Shown here: one piece after another, positions 2,905 to 40,371 of the stretch | Position numbering within the stretch: position 1 is the stretch's first letter | Layout of the letters: each line of letters starts with the position of its first letter | Assembly: GCF_023150235.1 (NCBI RefSeq) | Contig: NZ_JAKLLH010000006.1 | Location: 62,001-126,000 of the forward strand | Reading direction: 5' to 3' | From: Azonexus sp. | GTDB lineage: Bacteria > Pseudomonadota > Gammaproteobacteria > Burkholderiales > Rhodocyclaceae | Length of the DNA: 64,000 bases | Notes under the pieces: model-generated | Seen by the model: the letters and a program-made list of their open reading frames with translations, nothing else | What the model was told of the DNA's origin: nothing | The model's database searches: none | Translations under genes and position numbers: made by a program

Positions 2905-3929
2905 TTCGCCCCCGCGCGAATCTGGATCGCGGCACGCACCGGATCGGTGACCACCCGCTCACCCACGGTCAACCCGGCCAGCACCTCGATTTCCTGCCCC
3001 GCCTGCGCTTCGCCCAGGCGCAACTGGCGCAGCGTCAGCCGGCCGTCGGCCGCTTGCACATAAACCGCCGCGACTTCGCCCCGGCGCACCACCGCCGCCT
3101 GCGGCACGGTCAGCTTGTCGGCCTCGCCGCTCAGGAAGCGGACTCGGGCAAAAGTCCCCGGCATCGCCTCGGTGGCTGCCGGCAGGGTGATCCGTACCGT
3201 CGTCGCATGCGTCGCCGCATCCGCGGTCGGCAGCACCTGCACCGCCCCCGCCGCCACCGCGACCTGGCGGCCAAGTTCGGGAAACTCGACCAGCGCCCCG
3301 CGCTGGCTGCGCAATTGCGGCAAGCGATGCTGCGGCACGCTGGCGCTGACACGCAAGCCGCCCGGCTGGTAAATGGTGAACAGCGGCGCCCCCGGCATCG
3401 CCATGTCGCCGGCCTCGGCGTGGCGCCGGGCAACGATCCCGGCCAGCGGTGCCACCACCGTCGCATGGCTCTGCCCGGCACTGGCCGCGCTGCGCTGCGC
3501 CGCCGCCGCGTCGAGGTCGGCACGCGCCTTGTCGAGTGCCGCCGGGCTCATGAATTTTTGCCCGACCAGCGCCTGGGTCCGCTCAAAATTCGCCTTGGCA
3601 TTGCGGTACTGCGCCTCGGCCGCCCGCGCCGCCTCCTCCGCCTCGCGCGCGTCGATCCGCGCCAGCAACTCGCCCTTCTTCACCACCTGCCCGGCGTCGG
3701 CACGCACCTCCAGCACCCGCCCCGGCACCTGGCTGCCGACCGTGGCCTGAAGCACCGCCTCGACGGTGGACTCGACGGCAAAGCCACCGGCAATTCGCTG
3801 CGGCTGCACCGCCACCGTCGGCAAGGGCTCGCCCGCTGCTGCCACGGTCGACCAGACCCAGGCGGCAAAAAGCAGGCTGCGACAAGGGGAAGAACAAGAA
3901 CGGAAGTTCAGGGAAAGGAGAGTCGGCAT
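2901..3929 (-). CDS. RND efflux periplasmic adaptor (HlyD/AcrA membrane fusion protein)
   Basis: This 342-residue adaptor links the RND pump to an outer-membrane channel. An N-terminal signal-like segment (residues about 10-32, ending AAWVWSTVAAAG) precedes the barrel-sandwich half-motif (VGSQVPGRVLEVRADAGQVVKKGELLARID). An alpha-helical hairpin (EEAARAAEAQYRNAKANFERTQAL), the second lipoyl half (GIVARRHAEAGDMAMPGAPLFTI) and beta-barrel domains follow. Its stop overlaps the permease start. The start codon has no convincing ribosome-binding site, so the true start could be slightly different. The operon order adaptor-permease is standard. No regulator gene is adjacent on the visible side. An AT-rich stretch near 3990-4015, just upstream, is the likely promoter region. 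Confidence 0.88.
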   Translation of the reverse strand: MPTLLSLNFRSCSSPCRSLLFAAWVWSTVAAAGEPLPTVAVQPQRIAGGFAVESTVEAVLQATVGSQVPGRVLEVRADAGQVVKKGELLARIDAREAEEAARAAEAQYRNAKANFERTQALVGQKFMSPAALDKARADLDAAAAQRSAASAGQSHATVVAPLAGIVARRHAEAGDMAMPGAPLFTIYQPGGLRVSASVPQHRLPQLRSQRGALVEFPELGRQVAVAAGAVQVLPTADAATHATTVRITLPAATEAMPGTFARVRFLSGEADKLTVPQAAVVRRGEVAAVYVQAADGRLTLRQLRLGEAQAGQEIEVLAGLTVGERVVTDPVRAAIQIRAGAK

Positions 3930-29839: not shown

Positions 29840-32473
<2,634 letters not shown>

Positions 32474-32569
32474 AAGCTGGGCGGCCTCAAGGGCGATGAA
32501 ATATCGAAACCGTTGATTTTAGCGTGAAACCGGACCGGATGAATGGCGAAAGAACGGCCCGGAATCCCC

Positions 32570-33115
32570 TCAGAAAAGGCTTGCCGCGTGCAGCGGCGGG
32601 GCCTGGACATCCTTGGCCGAAAGTACGGGTGCCTCGGCCAGCGGCCAGTCGATGGCGAGGTCGGGATCGTTCCAGGCAATGCTGCGTTCGAGTTGCGGAT
32701 CGTAGTAATCCGTCGTCTTGTAGAGAAATTCCGCGTATTCGCTGAGCGTGACGAAGCCATGCGCAAAGCCGGGAGGCACCCAGAGCTGCTGGCGGTTTTC
32801 CGCCGACAGCCGGGCACCGACCCAGCGGCCGAAAGTCGGCGAATCGCGGCGGATATCGACGGCCACATCGAACACCTCGCCCAGCACGACACGCACGAGC
32901 TTGCCCTGGGCCTTGGGGGGAAGCTGGTAATGCAGGCCGCGCAGCACACCCCGGGAAGAACGCGAGTGGTTATCCTGGACGAAATCGCCGGCATGGCCGG
33001 ACAGCTCGGCAAACTGCCGGGCATTGAAACTCTCGAAAAAGAAGCCGCGATCGTCGCCGAAAACTTTCGGCGTCAACAGCAAGACCTCGGGAATCGCCAG
33101 TTTTTCGCAGTGCAT
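32570..33115 (-). CDS. rfbC: dTDP-4-dehydrorhamnose 3,5-epimerase
   Basis: RfbC epimerises dTDP-4-keto-6-deoxyglucose toward the rhamnose configuration. The 181-residue cupin has QDNHSRSSRGVLRGLHYQLPP with the active-site His, VGARLSAENRQQLWVPPGFAHGFVTLS, and FLYKTTDYYDP. It starts at the base where rfbA ends (one-base overlap). It belongs to the minus-strand rfbB-rfbA-rfbC set. Confidence 0.96.
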   Translation of the reverse strand: MHCEKLAIPEVLLLTPKVFGDDRGFFFESFNARQFAELSGHAGDFVQDNHSRSSRGVLRGLHYQLPPKAQGKLVRVVLGEVFDVAVDIRRDSPTFGRWVGARLSAENRQQLWVPPGFAHGFVTLSEYAEFLYKTTDYYDPQLERSIAWNDPDLAIDWPLAEAPVLSAKDVQAPPLHAASLF

Positions 33116-34002
33116 CAGAACACCTTTTCCTGCAGCAGGGCATGTAGATACCGACCGTAGGCATTCTTCTCCAGCGCCTTGGCCAGACGGGCCAGTTGCT
33201 CGGCACCGATCCAGCCCTGGCGGAAGGCGATTTCCTCCGGACAGGCGACTTTCAGCCCCTGACGGCGCTCGATGGTCTGGATGAACTGGCTGGCCTCGAG
33301 CATCGATTCGTGGGTGCCGGTATCGAGCCAGGCGTAACCCCGTCCCATCTTTTCGACATTGAGACGTCCTTGCTGCAAATAAACCGAATTGACATCGGTA
33401 ATTTCCAGCTCGCCGCGAGCCGAGGGCCGGATCGAACGGGCAATGGAAATCACCTCGTTGTCGTAGAAATAGAGGCCGGTCACGGCGTAGCTGGATTTCG
33501 GTTGCAGCGGCTTTTCTTCCAGGTCGGTGGCCCGCCCCTGGGCATCGAAGGCGACAACGCCGTAACGCTCGGGATCGTGAACATGATAGGCAAATACCGT
33601 TGCCCCCTCACCGCGCACGGCGGCGCTCTGCAAGAGGTTCTGGAACTCGTGGCCGTAAAAGATGTTATCGCCGAGAACCAGGGTGACGTCGTCCTTGCCG
33701 ATGAAGTCCTCGCCGATGATGAAGGCTTGCGCCAGGCCATCCGGCGAGGGCTGAATGGCGTAACGCAGGGAAAGTCCCCACTGGCTGCCATCGCCGAGCA
33801 GCATCTCGAAGCGCGGCGTGTCCTGCGGAGTGGAGATGATCAGCACCTCCCGGATTCCCGCCAGCATCAATGTCGATAGCGGGTAATAGATCATCGGCTT
33901 GTCGAAGATGGGCAATAGCTGCTTCGAGACGGCGAGTGTCGCCGGATAGAGGCGGGTTCCCGAGCCTCCGGCCAGGATGATGCCCTTGCGGTTCTTTTTC
34001 AT
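33115..34002 (-). CDS. rfbA: Glucose-1-phosphate thymidylyltransferase
   Basis: RfbA makes dTDP-glucose from dTTP and glucose 1-phosphate. The 295-residue protein has the nucleotidyltransferase signature [16 protein letters not shown] at the N-terminus, LGDNIFYGH, and the C-terminal [14 protein letters not shown]. The start is ATG 34002 ([10 protein letters not shown]), matching the family N-terminus. An in-frame extension to about 34185 is unlikely since it covers the end of rfbB. Confidence 0.96.
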
Positions 34003-34052
34003 GATCTCTGATTTTCCTGGATTGGCCCTGCGGCCTTTTGTCTTTTTTCGCG

Positions 34053-35111
34053 TCAGGCGCGGTATTGTTTTGCCGTCCATTCGCGGTAGGCGCCGCTGGT
34101 GACGCGGGCCACCCAGTCGGGGTGATCGAGGTACCAGCGCACGGTCTTGCGGATGCCGCTGGCAAAGGTCTCGGCCGGGCGCCAACCCAGCTCGCGCTCG
34201 AGCTTGCGCGCATCAATGGCATAGCGCCGGTCGTGGCCGGGGCGATCAGCGACGAAGACGATCTGCTCGGCATGGGAGCGGGCATCGCCGCGCGGCTGGA
34301 ACTCATCAAGCAGCGAACACAGCGTCCGCACCACATCGAGATTGCTCATCTCGTTCCAGCCACCGACATTGTAGGTTTCGCCGGGTGAGCCGGCTTCGAG
34401 CACGCGACGGATCGCCGCGCAGTGGTCGCCGACATAGAGCCAGTCGCGGATCTGCTGACCGTCGCCATAAATCGGCAGGGGCTTGCCGGCAAGCGCGTTG
34501 TGGATCACCAGCGGAATCAGTTTTTCCGGGAAATGGTAAGGCCCGTAATTGTTCGAGCAGTTGGTGGTCAGCACCGGCAAGCCGTAGGTGTGATGGTAGG
34601 CTCGAACCAGATGATCGGAAGCCGCCTTGCTCGCCGAGTACGGGCTGTTCGGCTCATAGCGCCGGGTCTCGGCAAACGGCGGTTCGTCTTTTTCCAGAGA
34701 ACCGTAGACCTCGTCGGTGGAAACATGCAGGAAACGGAAGTCGTTTTTCTCGTTTTCCGGCAGTTGACCGTGGTAGGCGCGCACCGCTTCCAACAAACGG
34801 AAGGTACCGACAATATTGGTCTGAATGAACTCGTCAGGGCCGTGAATGCTACGGTCGACATGCGATTCGGCCGCAAAATGCAGTACCGCGCGCGGGCGGT
34901 GGCTGGAAAGCAGGCGCGTCAGCAAATCCGTGTCGCCGATATTGCCGTGCACGAAAACATGGCTTGTGTTGCCTTCGAGACTGGCCAGATTCTCGAGGTT
35001 GCCGGCATAGGTCAGGGCATCGAGATTGAGCACCGGTTCGTCGCTGTGCCGAAACCAGTCAAGAATGAAATTGCTGCCGATAAAACCGGCACCACCGGTC
35101 ACCAGGATCAT
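34053..35111 (-). CDS. rfbB: dTDP-glucose 4,6-dehydratase
   Basis: This short-chain dehydrogenase/reductase-fold enzyme converts dTDP-glucose into the 4-keto-6-deoxy form. The 352-residue protein has the NAD-binding [30 protein letters not shown] and the catalytic [12 protein letters not shown]. The start is ATG 35111 (MILVTGG) with GGGAG upstream. It is the first gene of rfbB-A-C. No dTDP-4-dehydrorhamnose reductase (rfbD) is present beside it. Confidence 0.96.
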
Positions 35112-35189: not shown

Positions 35190-36530
35190 TCACTTGTCCA
35201 GCCAGGCATCGACCAGGGTGACGTCGTCGGGGCCGAGCAGGCCGGCGGCGGCCCGCAAACGCAGGCGCCCGAGAACGTAGGCGTATCGCGCCTGAGCCAG
35301 ATCGCGCTTGGCCGAGAAGAGCAATTGCTGCGCATTGAGGATGTCGAAACTGGTACGGACCCCGGCTTCCTGCCCCTTGCGCGCCGAATAAAGCGCCAGC
35401 TCGTTGGACTTGACCGCCTGTTGCAGCGCGTTGACCTGAGCAACGCCGTTGATCACGTTGAGATATTCCTGGCGCGTACTCTGGTTGATCGAGCGATAGG
35501 CGCCGGTCAAGTCGTGGCGGGCGCGGTCGCGCAGGGCACTGGTCTGATCGACGCGCCCCTGCGTGGCACCGCCGGCAAACAGGGGAATCGATACCTGCAC
35601 GCCAATGGTGTTGGACCAATTGACGGTATCGGTCATGGTGAAGCTCGGATTCTCGCTACGCCCGCGCGTGGCCACGAGGTCGGCAGTCGGCAGATGCGCG
35701 GCCCACGACTTGTAGTGCTCGCGCTCGGCGGCATCAAGCGCAGCCTCGCGGGCAAGTATCTGCGGATTGTTGGTCTGCGCGTATTCGAGCCAGCGCTCGA
35801 CATCGGCGGGTTCGGGCAGCTCCAGCGGCAGGCGCTGGCCGAGCGAAGCCAGCGTCGGCGGCAATTGACCGACAATGGCCTCGATGGCACGCAGACGGAT
35901 CTCGCGATTGTTCTGCGCCGCCAGTTCCTGCGCAACAATCGAGTCGTAGCGTGCCTGAGCCTCGTTGATATCGGTGACGGTGCCGACCCCAGCCTCGAAA
36001 TAGCGCTTGGCCTGCTTCAACTGCTCGGCGATGGCCGCCTTCTGTTCCGCCGCCAGGGTGACGTTGTCGATGGCGAGCAAGGCTTCGAGATAAGCCTGCG
36101 AGAGACGCAGGATCAGGTTGTGCTCGGCCGAGCGGTACTGCTGCTCGGCCTGGCGCACCTGTGCCGAGGCCTGCGCCAGCCCGGCCCAGGCCTGCGGCCT
36201 GAGCAATGCGAGACTAAGGTTCAGGGAAGCATTTTTTGCCGTGAAGGAGTAATCCCGGGTCGCCGGACGGCTACCGGAACGCAGTTCCTGGGTGGTGTCG
36301 TTGGCAATGCGACTGCCACTCAGGCTGAGTTGCGGCAGCAAGGCGCCCCGAGCCTGCGGCACCAGGCTTTCGGCAGCGCGCAGTTCGGCCTGCGCGGCGG
36401 CAATCTGCGGGTCGGCCGTGCGCGCTTCCAGGTAGAGGTCCTGCAGTGCGCCGGCTGAAGCCAGCCCGGAGAACATGGCCAGCGACAGCGCCGTGAGTTT
36501 CCAGCGATGGAGGGCTGTTTTCATGCTCAT
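35190..36530 (-). CDS. TolC-family outer membrane protein of a type I secretion system
   Basis: This 446-residue outer-membrane channel has a signal peptide (ending GLASA) and two TolC repeats. The first begins LYLEARTADPQIAAAQAELRAAESLVPQARGALLPQL. The second repeat half contains GVQVSIPLFAGGATQGRVDQ. Coiled-coil tunnel helices are rich in Ala, Gln and Arg. The start overlaps the stop of the HlyD adaptor gene (ATGA), so it is the last gene of the transporter-adaptor-channel set. It lacks the C-terminal extension of some TolC proteins. Confidence 0.92.
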   Translation of the reverse strand: MSMKTALHRWKLTALSLAMFSGLASAGALQDLYLEARTADPQIAAAQAELRAAESLVPQARGALLPQLSLSGSRIANDTTQELRSGSRPATRDYSFTAKNASLNLSLALLRPQAWAGLAQASAQVRQAEQQYRSAEHNLILRLSQAYLEALLAIDNVTLAAEQKAAIAEQLKQAKRYFEAGVGTVTDINEAQARYDSIVAQELAAQNNREIRLRAIEAIVGQLPPTLASLGQRLPLELPEPADVERWLEYAQTNNPQILAREAALDAAEREHYKSWAAHLPTADLVATRGRSENPSFTMTDTVNWSNTIGVQVSIPLFAGGATQGRVDQTSALRDRARHDLTGAYRSINQSTRQEYLNVINGVAQVNALQQAVKSNELALYSARKGQEAGVRTSFDILNAQQLLFSAKRDLAQARYAYVLGRLRLRAAAGLLGPDDVTLVDAWLDK

Positions 36531-37918
36531 TGCTCCCGGAACCCGAAGGTCATGCGGCTCAACATCGGCTTCAGCAGGTAGTTGAGCAAGGTCCGCTCGC
36601 CGGTCTTGATGACAACGTCGGTCGGCATGCCGGGCTGCGGCGTGACTTTGTACTTGCGCAACTCCTGCTCGCCATTGGGCGTGATCTCGATAATCGCCGC
36701 ATAGTAAGGCTCGCCGGTACGCGGATCGGTGATACGGTCGGCGGAAACCTTGGTCAGCTTGCCTTCGATGACCGGGTGCGCACCGCCCGGCATCACGATA
36801 TTGATGTGCATGTCGGCCAGTTGCCCCACCTGAACCTGATCGATGAGATTGACCGGCAAGCGGGCATCGACCACCAGTAGATCGCCCTCGGGCACGATGT
36901 CCATGATGCGCTCGCCAGGGCGGACCACCCCGCCGATGGTGTGCACTTCAAGACCGACGACGGCACCGTCGGTCGGCGACTTGATCACCGAACGCTCGAG
37001 TTCTTCCTGCAAGGCCTTTCGCTTGTCGCCCGTGCCGCCGACATTGCGCTGCACATCGGCCAGCTGGCTCTCGACTTCCTTGCGGTAATCCTGCAGGCGC
37101 TGGGATTTACGCAGGCGGGTCTCGCTGATGGCCGCCTGAGCGCGCGCCACCGTGGCCAGCGTATCGCCGTAGCTGCCGCGCAACTCGGCCAGCACACGTT
37201 CGAGTTCGTACAACTTGTTGCGGGGAACAAAACCTTCCTCGACCAGACCGCGCAAGGAAGCCAACTCCTTCTCGATCAGTTCGATCTGCGTTTTCTTGCC
37301 CTGCTGCACCGACTCCACCCCCTTGATCTGCTGCTGCAGGCCCGTGATGGTTTCGTCCAGCGCCCCTTGTTCGCTGCTCAGGGACGAGCGACGAGCAAGG
37401 AACAACTGCTGCTGGGCGTGCATCGCATCCTTGGCGCGGGGGTCCTGCGCCGAGGCGGCGACCAGTTCCTGCGGGAACTGCGGATTGGCCAGCGAATCGC
37501 GCTCGGCCAGCAAGCGTGCCTGCATGGCCTGCATCTGCCAGTACTCGCCGGAAACGATGTCCAGCTGGGTACGCACCTCGGTATCGACCAGGGTCAGCAA
37601 CACCTCGCCGGATTTCACTTTCTGACCATCCCGCACCTTGATCGCCTCGACAATACCGCCGCGCAAATGCTGAATCACCTTGCGCTTGGTATCGACGCTG
37701 ATCACCCCGACGCCGGGAATACCCTCGTCGAGCGGCGCCAGCGCCGCCCACAGGATGAAGCCGCCAAAACCGATAGCCAGCGTCAGATAGCCGAAACGAA
37801 CCACCTTGCGCTCATCGGTCTCGACCGCCGGTAACTGCCCCACCGGGTTCTCGTCGATCTGCGTCGGTTCATCGCCCGAGCGCAGCGACGCCATCATGTT
37901 CCTGATCTTTCCAAACAT
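36527..37918 (-). CDS. HlyD family type I secretion periplasmic adaptor
   Basis: This 463-residue adaptor has one N-terminal membrane anchor (FGYLTLAIGFGGFILWAALAP). The first lipoyl half is VISVDTKRKVIQHLRGGIVEAIKVRDGQKVKSGEVLLTL, followed by a long coiled-coil hairpin (about 90-290). The C-terminal HlyD signature region is PGMPTDVVIKTGERTLLNYLLKPM. It is typical of RTX/PrtE-type adaptors. It lies 15 bp after the ABC gene and overlaps the TolC gene. Confidence 0.94.
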   Translation of the reverse strand: MFGKIRNMMASLRSGDEPTQIDENPVGQLPAVETDERKVVRFGYLTLAIGFGGFILWAALAPLDEGIPGVGVISVDTKRKVIQHLRGGIVEAIKVRDGQKVKSGEVLLTLVDTEVRTQLDIVSGEYWQMQAMQARLLAERDSLANPQFPQELVAASAQDPRAKDAMHAQQQLFLARRSSLSSEQGALDETITGLQQQIKGVESVQQGKKTQIELIEKELASLRGLVEEGFVPRNKLYELERVLAELRGSYGDTLATVARAQAAISETRLRKSQRLQDYRKEVESQLADVQRNVGGTGDKRKALQEELERSVIKSPTDGAVVGLEVHTIGGVVRPGERIMDIVPEGDLLVVDARLPVNLIDQVQVGQLADMHINIVMPGGAHPVIEGKLTKVSADRITDPRTGEPYYAAIIEITPNGEQELRKYKVTPQPGMPTDVVIKTGERTLLNYLLKPMLSRMTFGFREQ

Positions 37919-37933: not shown

Positions 37934-39691
37934 TTACTGTGCGCCAGCCGGCAATGCGGCGGTCTGCGTGGCTGCCGGGGCGGCGGGCTGGGCCTGCCGC
38001 GCCTGGCGGTTCTGCTGCTGGATCGCCTGCAACACCTGGTCGCGCGGCCCGAACAACTGCAACATGCCGTCGGCCATCAAGGCCAACAAATCGACGGCGG
38101 CGATGATGCTGGTGCGATGGGTAATCAGCACCACCGACACACCGCGCGCCTTCAGCGCCAACACGGCCTGCACCAAGGCGGCTTCGCCGGCATCGTCGAG
38201 ATTGGAATTCGGCTCGTCGAGAACAACCAGCGACGGATTGCCATAAACTGCGCGGGCAAAACCGATCCGCTGGCGCTGACCGCCCGAAAGGACGCTACCG
38301 CTTTCGCCAATCGGCGTGTCGTACCCCTTGGGGAAGCGCAAGATCATTTCGTGCACACCGGCCAGCTTGGCGGCCTCGACCACCTTTTCGGCATCGACTT
38401 CGCCAAAGCGGGCGATGTTCTCGGCGATCGTTCCCTCGAACAGCTCGATATCCTGCGGCAGATAGCCCACCGCCGGGCCGAGTTCGGCCTTGTCCCACAG
38501 GAAGACATCGGCGCCGTCGAGACGGACCTTGCCGGCCGCCGCCGGCCAGATACCGACCAGCAGGCGGGCAAGCGTCGATTTGCCGGAGGCCGACGGTCCG
38601 ATAATCCCGAGTACCTGTCCCGGCATGACCTGGAAACCGACCTGGCGGACAACCAGATTGTTGCTCCCCGGCGGCATGGCGGAAACGCCTTCAACCTGCA
38701 GGCGCCCTTCCGGACGCGGCAACTGCATCGCCTCGGGACGCTTCGGGTTATCGGCCAGCAGTTTCTCCAGACGATGGTAGGCCGTACGTGCCGAAAGCAA
38801 CTGTTTCCAGACGCCAATCGCCATTTCGACCGGACCCAGCGCCTTGCCGAGCAGGATGGAGGCGGCAATCATCGCACCCGGCGTGATCGAACCCTCGATT
38901 GCCAGCAAGGCCCCAAGGCCGAGAACCAGCGATTGCACGGTGATACGCACGGTCTTGGTCGTGGCGGTGATGGCCCCGGCCTTCTCGCTGGCTTCGTTTT
39001 GCAGGGCAATGAAGCGCAACTGGCGCTGCAGCCAGCGGCGCTTGAGGTTACCCAGCATGCCCATGGCCTCGATCACCTCGGCATTGCGCAGGTTGTTGGC
39101 GGCAAAGGTATTCGCGGCACTGGCATACATCGAGGCTTCGGCCAGGGGCTTGCGCGTCGTCACCTCGGTCGCCCAGGCGAGAATGCCCAGGATCACCATG
39201 GCGATCACGGCGAAAAGACCGAGCCAGGGACTGAACATGAAAATCACGGCCAGATAAAACGGTGCCCAGGGCGCATCGAAGAAGGCGAACAGCCCGTTGC
39301 CGGTAATGAACTGGCGGACGTTGGTCAAGTCTCCCAGCGCCTGGCCGGCATTGCCGCCGCTGCGTCGCAGGTAGCTTTCAAACGAGGCGGTGAAGATACG
39401 CTCGCTCAATTTCTGGTCGATCTGCGCGCCGACCCGCACCAGCAACTTCGAGCGCGTGTACTCCAGCATGCCAAGAATTGCGTAGAAACCGAGCAGGATC
39501 ACGGTCAACATCATCAGCGTCGTCTCATTGCGGCTCTGCAGCACGCGGTCGTAGACCTGAAGCATGTAAATGGAAGGAATCAATCCCAGCATATTGATGA
39601 ACATGCTGAAGATCCCGGCGCTATAAAACGCCTTTTTGAACGACAGCAGCACCTCATTGAGCTCTGTCTTGGGCAAAAGCAGTTTCTTCAT
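37934..39691 (-). CDS. Type I secretion system ABC permease/ATPase (PrtD family)
   Basis: This 585-residue fused ABC exporter has a six-helix transmembrane domain (about 20-310). The nucleotide-binding domain has Walker A GPSASGKSTLA, signature LSGGQRQRIGFARA and Walker B SLVVLDEPNSNLDD. There is no N-terminal C39 peptidase-like domain, so it fits the PrtD/HasD protease-exporter type rather than HlyB or LapB. It follows the TnpB-like gene by 18 bp, so both are likely on one transcript. No RTX substrate gene is in the window. A low-complexity Gln/Ala tail ends the protein. Confidence 0.94.
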   Translation of the reverse strand: MKKLLLPKTELNEVLLSFKKAFYSAGIFSMFINMLGLIPSIYMLQVYDRVLQSRNETTLMMLTVILLGFYAILGMLEYTRSKLLVRVGAQIDQKLSERIFTASFESYLRRSGGNAGQALGDLTNVRQFITGNGLFAFFDAPWAPFYLAVIFMFSPWLGLFAVIAMVILGILAWATEVTTRKPLAEASMYASAANTFAANNLRNAEVIEAMGMLGNLKRRWLQRQLRFIALQNEASEKAGAITATTKTVRITVQSLVLGLGALLAIEGSITPGAMIAASILLGKALGPVEMAIGVWKQLLSARTAYHRLEKLLADNPKRPEAMQLPRPEGRLQVEGVSAMPPGSNNLVVRQVGFQVMPGQVLGIIGPSASGKSTLARLLVGIWPAAAGKVRLDGADVFLWDKAELGPAVGYLPQDIELFEGTIAENIARFGEVDAEKVVEAAKLAGVHEMILRFPKGYDTPIGESGSVLSGGQRQRIGFARAVYGNPSLVVLDEPNSNLDDAGEAALVQAVLALKARGVSVVLITHRTSIIAAVDLLALMADGMLQLFGPRDQVLQAIQQQNRQARQAQPAAPAATQTAALPAGAQ

Positions 39692-39709: not shown

Positions 39710-40306
39710 TCAGGCAATCGCCTGCTCTGGGGAAATGGCAACAACGTACTCGGGAAAAACCAGCGCTTCCTCGCCCGACTCGAGCGCGGCGCCGAAGGTA
39801 AAGACGAGGAAGAAACCCTCCACATCCTGCGAGAGCGTGATTTCGCGTATTTTTTCGTTACGGAAACGTTGCTCGACCTCGGGCACCAGCGCCATCTCGA
39901 AAAGGATGCGCCCATCGAGGGTGTACATCGACAAGCCGCCCTGGCGCAGGCTCAGGGTGTGGCGATCGAAGTAGACCGGCGCCGTATCGGCAAAACTCAG
40001 GAGCGGCAGGGGCCGCAGCGGGGCATTGCCGATATACCAGGGACTGGCGGGGTGCTGGTAAACCACCCGAGCCGTCCGCGATACCGAGTAGATGGCGTTG
40101 CAGATCATCTGCGAACCCAGCGCCGGAAAGCGCTCGCGCATCTGGCGATAGGCCAGATGATGCAAGGCCACCCGGTTCCAGCAACGATGCTCCTTGACCA
40201 GCGGCGCCAAGGCATTGCAGGCCTCGGCAAAGGCTGCCCGCAGGCGCAGCAGGCTGGCGCGCTGAATTTCATTCACCGGAAAACGGATAAGGACGGTTGA
40301 GTTCAT
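39710..40306 (-). CDS. TnpB N-terminal-domain-like protein without RuvC, first gene of the secretion operon
   Basis: This 198-residue soluble protein is unlike its neighbours. By eye it follows the N-terminal half of IS605-type OrfB/TnpB proteins. The helix segment reads FAEACNALAPLVKEHRCWNRVALHHLAYRQMRERFPALGSQMICNAI. The beta-rich segment includes FADTAPVYFDRHTLSLRQG and SMYTLDGRILFEMAL. It ends with a strand (GFFLVFTFGAALES) exactly where a TnpB would continue into the first RuvC Asp motif, and no RuvC or zinc finger follows in any frame. No other transposon part is nearby. It is 18 bp before the ABC gene and has a plausible promoter with three direct repeats. It could be a domesticated nucleic-acid-binding regulator or a decayed remnant. 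ATG 40306 is preferred over a TTG upstream. Confidence 0.6.
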   Translation of the reverse strand: MNSTVLIRFPVNEIQRASLLRLRAAFAEACNALAPLVKEHRCWNRVALHHLAYRQMRERFPALGSQMICNAIYSVSRTARVVYQHPASPWYIGNAPLRPLPLLSFADTAPVYFDRHTLSLRQGGLSMYTLDGRILFEMALVPEVEQRFRNEKIREITLSQDVEGFFLVFTFGAALESGEEALVFPEYVVAISPEQAIA

Positions 40307-40315
40307 GGTCGGCGC

Positions 40316-40345
40316 ATGATACGACAAGCGTCCTATATGAAACAA
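40316..40345 (-). promoter_or_regulatory. Candidate promoter of the TnpB-like/type I secretion operon
   Basis: On the minus strand TTGTTT (40340-40345) and TATCAT (40316-40321) are separated by 18 bp, with the -10 ending 9 bp before the ATG. The -35 region lies beside the first TTCATATAGGA repeats, so a bound protein would affect polymerase access. Confidence 0.4.
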
Positions 40346-40371
40346 GTCCTATATGAACTTTCTTACATGAA
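40331..40371 (-). repeat. Three direct repeats TTCATATAGGA-like over the promoter
   Basis: On the plus strand TCCTATATGAA occurs exactly twice (40331-40341 and 40347-40357) and a related TCTTACATGAA follows (40361-40371). Spacing is 16 and 14 bp. The repeats are AT-rich in a GC-rich context and overlap or abut the putative -35 of the TnpB-like gene. Tandem operator sites are a likely function. Confidence 0.8.

Follow-up and report, generated by a model that had tools for sequence, protein, structure and literature searches.

A RuvC-less TnpB descendant at the head of type I secretion operons, a candidate protein-only autorepressor with a putative TAM-derived operator

Introduction

What might the half of a TnpB protein that reads the target-adjacent motif (TAM) do on its own when its gene opens a type I secretion operon? 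The question is raised by a gene, here called X, in the window, the whole 64,000-nucleotide stretch of an Azonexus sp. contig that was analyzed. TnpB and Cas12 proteins are regarded as RNA-guided, and their N-terminal half is known mainly as a clamp that tests for a short TAM/PAM. In TnpB this half grips the TAM as double-stranded DNA, and the RuvC half is the nuclease and holds a large part of the guide-RNA scaffold; the guide is the RNA running off the 3′ end of the gene, and the TAM of an IS605 element belongs just outside the left end of the element. An earlier note, made from the letters of the window, had read X as the N-terminal half of an IS605 OrfB/TnpB that stops where RuvC should begin. 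Here we establish the descent of X, its loss of RuvC, its position in the operon, the conservation of an operator at its promoter and the presence in that operator of the pentamer found at the TAM position. We infer that X is the operator's binder, that it acts independently of RNA, that it represses and that the purpose is control of exporter dosage. On balance, we consider it probable that the TAM-reading half of TnpB has here turned into an autorepressor that controls a type I secretion operon as protein alone.

Results

X is the first gene of a conserved type I secretion operon

The intact 198-residue reading frame described by the earlier note, which gave no strand, operator or mechanism, was confirmed and lies on the minus strand, with an ATG start codon at 40306 (Table 1). 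Genes for an ABC transporter, an HlyD-type adaptor and a TolC-family channel follow in that order, and the distance of 18 nt between the X stop codon and the ABC start codon is as the note had given it. X is a single-copy gene in its own genome and matches no model in Pfam (E≤1) or NCBIfam (E≤10), and scans of X or its family against Pfam, NCBIfam and PHROGs gave no credible match. The assertion that no transposon genes lie nearby stands for OrfB_IS605, the one family checked, which has no match anywhere in the genome. Beyond the TolC gene lie two further minus-strand ORFs (32470–33024, 184 aa; 33665–34336, 223 aa) that have no Pfam family at E≤1e-3 and may be genes or chance frames.

Table 1. 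Features of the X operon and its upstream region, in window coordinates.
Feature	Coordinates	Strand	Basis or remark
X, 198-aa RuvC-less TnpB WED-REC-WED protein	39710..40306	-	homology, fold, profile, tree; stop codon 39710-39712
Type I secretion ABC permease/ATPase, PrtD type	37934..39691	-	TIGR01842, E 2.3e-234
HlyD-type periplasmic adaptor	36527..37918	-	domain models
TolC-family outer-membrane channel	35190..36530	-	domain models
-10-like hexamer TATCAT	40316..40321	-	about 15 nt before X start codon
Putative operator site TTCATATAGGA	40331..40341	-	0 mismatches
Putative operator site TTCATATAGGA	40347..40357	-	0 mismatches; direct repeat of site 40331..40341
Possible degenerate third site TTCATGTAAGAA	40360..40371	-	two mismatches to 11-mer, by eye

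Counting that of the window, 27 copies of X are known. The genome-contig collection gave 19 relatives, 17 of them in records titled Betaproteobacteria or families within and two in records titled only proteobacteria; five further copies came from the genus, where X occurs in 6 of 60 genomes including its own, and the phylum scan and the class scan added one copy each. Two weak class-level matches, in G765 and G524, lay in frames apparently unrelated to X, and a scan of IMG/VR with the family alignment confirmed no relative. One copy (L011) is without upstream DNA, lost its N-terminus at a contig end and was left out of the operator, alignment and tree analyses; another (L021), whose contig ends inside X, was left out of the downstream test. 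The loci are not independent, as L004, L005 and L009 are near-copies.

The orthologue search and synteny check that the earlier note had proposed bear out the placing of X as first gene of a type I secretion operon. X adjoins a type I secretion ABC gene in all 26 testable loci, with the ABC start codon −4 to +87 nt from the X stop codon and an overlap in 13 of them. The ABC gene was identified in 23 loci by tblastn against that of the window and in two more (L026 and L039) by reading the translation. Within the genome-contig collection an HlyD gene follows in 19/19 loci, and the ABC gene is doubled in tandem in 18/19. Orthologues running on into a RuvC domain, beside an X that was simply truncated and not conserved, were the outcome that the note had set against its own reading; instead, every testable copy (26/26) ends without RuvC, the frame stopping at about 195–250 aa.

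X derives from the N-terminal half of an IS605-type TnpB

A search of 398 genomes of the phylum with X returned three matches: X itself, another X (in G290), and a 375-aa frame in G068, here L027, whose N-terminal part matched (E = 2.8e-28, 41% identity over residues 3–151). Compared directly by BLASTP, L027 and X aligned with E = 9e-33 and 39% identity over 155 columns. L027 lies 3 nt after a Y1 transposase (TnpA) gene and carries OrfB_IS605 and Cas12f1-like_TNB domains, neither of which was detected by the domain scan in X or in its 18 aligned relatives. TnpB genes were the sole plasmid match and the sole phage-collection match of the X searches. Profile–profile comparison placed columns 2–178 of the X family on positions 8–181 of a profile of seven TnpBs (probability 95.8, E = 8e-9); one of the seven, L057, is placed close to X in the tree. 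Searched against PDB sequences, the X family profile gave nothing credible, with one chance match.

We built a tree from 26 X sequences, 10 TnpB N-terminal halves and one phage protein. All 26 X rows fell on one side of a branch with support of 96/74, present in 96% of bootstrap trees and short of the tool's starred threshold; X stood near L027/L044 (85/76) and L057, within a 30-row set supported at 100/98, and the phage row sat on a very long branch. Because the 26 X rows lie on one side of one branch beside the TnpBs, a single domestication would be the simplest reading of the tree.

The AF2 model of X, folded from an alignment (A1) of 19 of the 27 known copies, had a pLDDT of 88.0 and a pTM of 0.85, and its predicted layout is a first beta strand and three long REC helices followed by the WED barrel. 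The earlier note had suggested a structural search, and Foldseek returned significant matches of the TnpB/Cas12f type: of 726 PDB matches with E≤10, all 22 with E≤1e-3 were Cas12f, TnpB, Cas12k or Cas12n. The best was AsCas12f (8j3r_B, E = 3.2e-6, TM 0.67 over the query), and ISDra2 TnpB was found with E = 9e-5 and TM 0.49. According to passages of PMC10097598, ISDra2 TnpB consists of WED (1–12 and 117–176), REC (13–116) and RuvC (from 185), and the TAM duplex is held in the cleft between WED and REC. Judged by the model, X spans the REC lobe (WED-REC-WED) of ISDra2 TnpB and ends there. Homology to full-length L027, the Foldseek matches and the profile comparison rule out a chance likeness and agree with the note that X is the N-terminal half of an IS605 OrfB/TnpB; with conservation across the family, they also uphold its placing of the X terminus where RuvC would begin. 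We regard descent of X from the WED-REC-WED half of an IS605-type TnpB as near certain.

Across 19 X sequences, which share 44–55% identity and have intact frames, 47 of 198 positions are invariant. These include 14 of the 17 at positions 61–77 (the GSQMICNAIYSV helix; FPxLGSQMICNAIYSVSR), 7 of 13 at 108–120 (PVYFDRHT) and 7 of 16 at 45–60, with 1 of 27 in the tail. The TAM readers of ISDra2 TnpB are K76, F77, Q80, T123 and N124, as given in passages of PMC10097598. In the printed PDB alignment, whose register was set by eye and is uncertain, blocks 61–77 and 108–120 of X fall on the ISDra2 stretches with K76/F77/Q80 and T123/N124, respectively. In that register the letters at the TAM-contact positions differ from those of ISDra2, which would be expected for reading of TTCAT in place of TTGAT. 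Selection on X thus located appears strong, with the most conserved residues in the putative DNA-reading blocks. A one-off truncation or decay of TnpB was also considered and is ruled out by the conserved endpoint, residues and synteny.

A conserved putative operator overlaps the X promoter

Upstream of X, conservation is limited to an 11-mer that reads TTCATATAGGA, or TCCTATATGAA as its reverse complement; the X start codon often lies within the latter form. At up to one mismatch in either orientation the 11-mer has 55 matches, spread over 26/26 testable loci and confined to the stretch from −150 to +20 relative to the X start, the remaining 283,284 bp of these loci having none; the matches mark 50 distinct places, because five palindromic sites match both strands. 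Sites led by TTCAT surround the X promoter in every one of the 26 loci. The 3.4-Mb genome that holds the window contains the exact 11-mer twice, both times at the X promoter, versus no match for the reversed control, and shuffles of the window, searched with up to one mismatch allowed, gave a mean of 0.14 matches. Of the 60 congeners, six bear X and together contain 12 exact 11-mers, 11 of them at the X promoter; a single copy occurs in each of 5 of the 54 X-less genomes, and the reversed motif matched twice across the 60. No homologue of X, ABC, HlyD or TolC turned up in the DNA retrieved around the six stray copies (five in X-less genomes and one extra in G049), and a search of IMG/VR for the paired operator pattern came back empty. 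In a count of 32 sites, TCATATA and the last A were invariant and nothing was conserved past position 10, with the invariance of some letters overstated as the count pattern fixes them.

Most loci have one site that includes the start codon and another upstream of the −10 box, sometimes in the opposite orientation. The spacing between inverted sites ranges from 10 to 26 nt, and because it varies the sites are probably bound separately. The palindromic form TTCATATATGAA occurs in L006, L015, L025 and L039; L018 and L020 have a single site each at up to one mismatch; and in L004, L005 and L009 the sites form a pair of direct repeats some 40 nt upstream of the assigned start. The layout in the window, two direct repeats with none at the start codon, is atypical. 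A hexamer matching TATAAT in at least 5 of 6 positions starts at −18 to −11 in 16/26 loci, compared with 0/364 upstream control windows, and is absent from that place in the other 10; in L016 the −10-like hexamer overlaps the locus's own operator copy. With the −10 box so near the start codon, RNA polymerase would occupy the sites, and the mRNA would have almost no leader. X thus has a feature of autoregulatory repressors, a conserved putative operator overlapping its own promoter. Individual X promoters, for example those of L021, L023 and L026, have a −10 box so close to the ATG that the mRNA should be leaderless or nearly so.

The operator begins with the pentamer at the TAM position of the nearest TnpB elements

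The nearest TnpB elements are L027 (with Y1 TnpA), L044 (Methylomarinovum tepidoasis plasmid NZ_AP024719.1) and L057 (MT839988). In all three, TTCAT lies directly outside the left end: the ends read TTCAT-AGAA and continue with a shared GGAAACC and a GC-rich hairpin, and the bases before TTCAT differ. The first five bases of the operator, at its outer edge, are likewise TTCAT, a match to three elements; an edge pentamer would agree by chance in about 2 of 1024 cases, a figure computed post hoc. A congener of the L027 host, G103, has both L027 flanks adjoining and the element absent (...GCCATCATTCA-ACGCTAACATTC..., compared with ...GCCACCATTCAT to the left and CGCTACCATTC... to the right of L027). 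This empty site reads TTCAA, one base off TTCAT, and is defined by two short matches of 22 and 30 bp (E = 0.004 and 0.006). Because the flanks adjoin there without the element, the pentamer is host flank just outside the left end of L027, and TTCAT is likely the TAM of the nearest TnpB relatives, as read from these element ends. Searches for further copies of the L027 and L057 elements found no further full element. In L044 an IS4 gene stands between the left end and the tnpA of the IS605 element (L044:3010–4990), as if it had been inserted there later.

Discussion

A model for autorepression by X

In the model we propose, X, having lost the RuvC half, would act as a protein-only, sequence-specific DNA-binding repressor. 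It would bind TTCATATAGGA or the palindromic TTCATATATGAA, singly or as a dimer on near-palindromic sites. With sites on either side of the −10 box or across it, and often across the start codon too, X on its DNA would be expected to exclude RNA polymerase from the X promoter, a placement that suits a repressor and not an activator. X would thereby hold down its own transcription together with that of the co-transcribed type I secretion genes, in a negative feedback loop that would set exporter dosage. As to how the DNA is read, we lean towards the WED-REC fold alone, independently of RNA and perhaps as a dimer, recognizing an 11–12 bp operator made of the ancestral TAM TTCAT and six further bases, which would make X a new class of DNA-binding repressor.

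The main competing explanation is that X is still RNA-guided like TldR and represses its own operon with TTCAT as TAM, ATAGGA as a 6-nt seed and a short guide from elsewhere. The motif length of 11 does equal a TAM of 5 plus a seed of 6, mutations in seed nucleotides 1–6 relieve repression in TldR according to passages of PMC13418256, and the WED barrel, which contacts part of the RNA scaffold in TnpB (passages of PMC10097598), is still present in X. However, a guide RNA encoded beside X, a feature of TldR, was found by none of the seed, Rfam and gap-length checks. There is no room for a guide scaffold after X because of the short gap to the ABC gene in all 26 loci; ATAGGA is absent from the forward strand of X and the 400 nt downstream in 19/19 loci, where the reverse strand holds one TCCTAT (in L020); and Rfam gave nothing over threshold between 34000 and 44000 of the window. 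The genome likewise contains no OrfB_IS605 gene able to lend RNA. The scaffold-hairpin core of the sister elements, allowing up to one mismatch, is absent from the forward strand of 13 loci, and its four reverse-strand matches, 1.6–3.6 kb from X, are below chance. Nor is X set in a transposon context: ends, 3′ scaffold and tnpA were not found around it, and an ABC gene follows. RuvC, which binds scaffold stems 1–3, is missing, and the palindromic sites in four loci would better suit a protein dimer. From these checks, made at and around X and, for OrfB_IS605, over the genome, we judge RNA guidance unlikely.

Site–gene co-conservation is no proof of binding, and X always adjoins the exporter, so that the operator could serve another regulator encoded elsewhere and X could be, for example, a structural or folding accessory of the secretion machine. 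We consider this improbable, given that the 11-mer has no second home in its own genome and over 60 congeners tracks X and not type I secretion, its six stray matches lying away from exporter homologues, and given that the most conserved residues of X lie in the putative DNA-reading blocks. Still less probable is autoregulation at the RNA level, in which X would recognize UCCUAUAUGAA around the start codon of its mRNA, itself almost without a leader, and block translation. The start codon does lie within one site in most loci, and the −10 spacing implies a very short leader; yet most loci carry, in addition, a site ahead of the −10 box that transcription from that promoter would not include and that in some cases faces the opposite way, and the window has no site at the start codon. 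That X is a decaying, functionless remnant of TnpB fits with its being shorter than its TnpB relatives and is otherwise scarcely credible, in view of its 47 invariant residues (19 sequences, 44–55% identity), intact frames, constant synteny and conserved operator. We thus return to autorepression by X as the preferred reading.

Relation to known TnpB derivatives

X shares with the TnpBs of the L027, L044 and L057 subgroup the WED-REC-WED half, 39–41% identity to L027 and the pentamer TTCAT; in contrast to them, it has no RuvC/zinc-finger (TNB) half, transposon ends, tnpA or detectable scaffold RNA, and it belongs to a secretion operon. TldR proteins are likewise TnpB descendants recruited as transcriptional repressors, as X would be. 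According to passages of PMC13418256, they have a mutated RuvC and are directed by a guide RNA to other genes, fliC among them, whereas X has no RuvC, no guide was found for it, and it appears from the placement of its putative operator to act on its own operon. Membership of X in TldR was rejected on the complete absence of RuvC and the lack of a guide detected beside the gene. The comparison that the earlier note drew with nuclease-dead TnpB regulators is therefore apt in part, as those regulators retain a mutated RuvC and a guide RNA (PMC13418256). Cas12f and other type V effectors give the best fold matches to X (AsCas12f 8j3r_B) but are full nucleases that work with CRISPR RNA. A further protein like X is the product of an intact phage gene (L042; IMGVR_UViG_3300023313_000004, 2980–3447, 155 aa), a TnpB N-terminal half without RuvC, which may be a second, independent RuvC-less TnpB. 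It differs from X in its phage context, its very long branch (3.92), its occurrence in a single record found and the lack of a known operator. The L042 gene sits between small phage genes, upstream of a terminase-like gene.

Since TldR is known, a TnpB-derived repressor as a kind already exists; what is new is a RuvC-less, apparently guide-less TnpB-derived repressor with a private operator. In the open-licence literature we found no description of a RuvC-less TnpB regulator or of a TnpB-like gene in a type I secretion operon. RNA-free binding by X, if proved, would define a new class of transcription factor and provide a natural RNA-free DNA binder of about 200 aa on the Cas12/TnpB fold. The model, if true, would add a second route besides TldR from TnpB to repressor and offer a testable case of TAM specificity growing into a longer sequence specificity; it would also mean that a module for reading a PAM/TAM can, after the loss of guide and nuclease, turn into a sequence-specific binder of the ordinary sort.

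This group of type I secretion operons, which open with a gene that neither Pfam nor NCBIfam names, thereby gains a putative regulator. As for the cargo of these exporters, no RTX repeats were seen beside the operon of the window by a GG.G.D count. A regex search found RTX substrate candidates near X in 3/26 loci (L016, L018 and L026), many of the loci being short, and Pfam upheld that of L026 only. The genome of the window (G000) has 28 RTX-repeat (PF00353) matches on seven contigs (C1, C20, C24, C36, C39, C44 and C45), so that the exporter has many candidate substrates.
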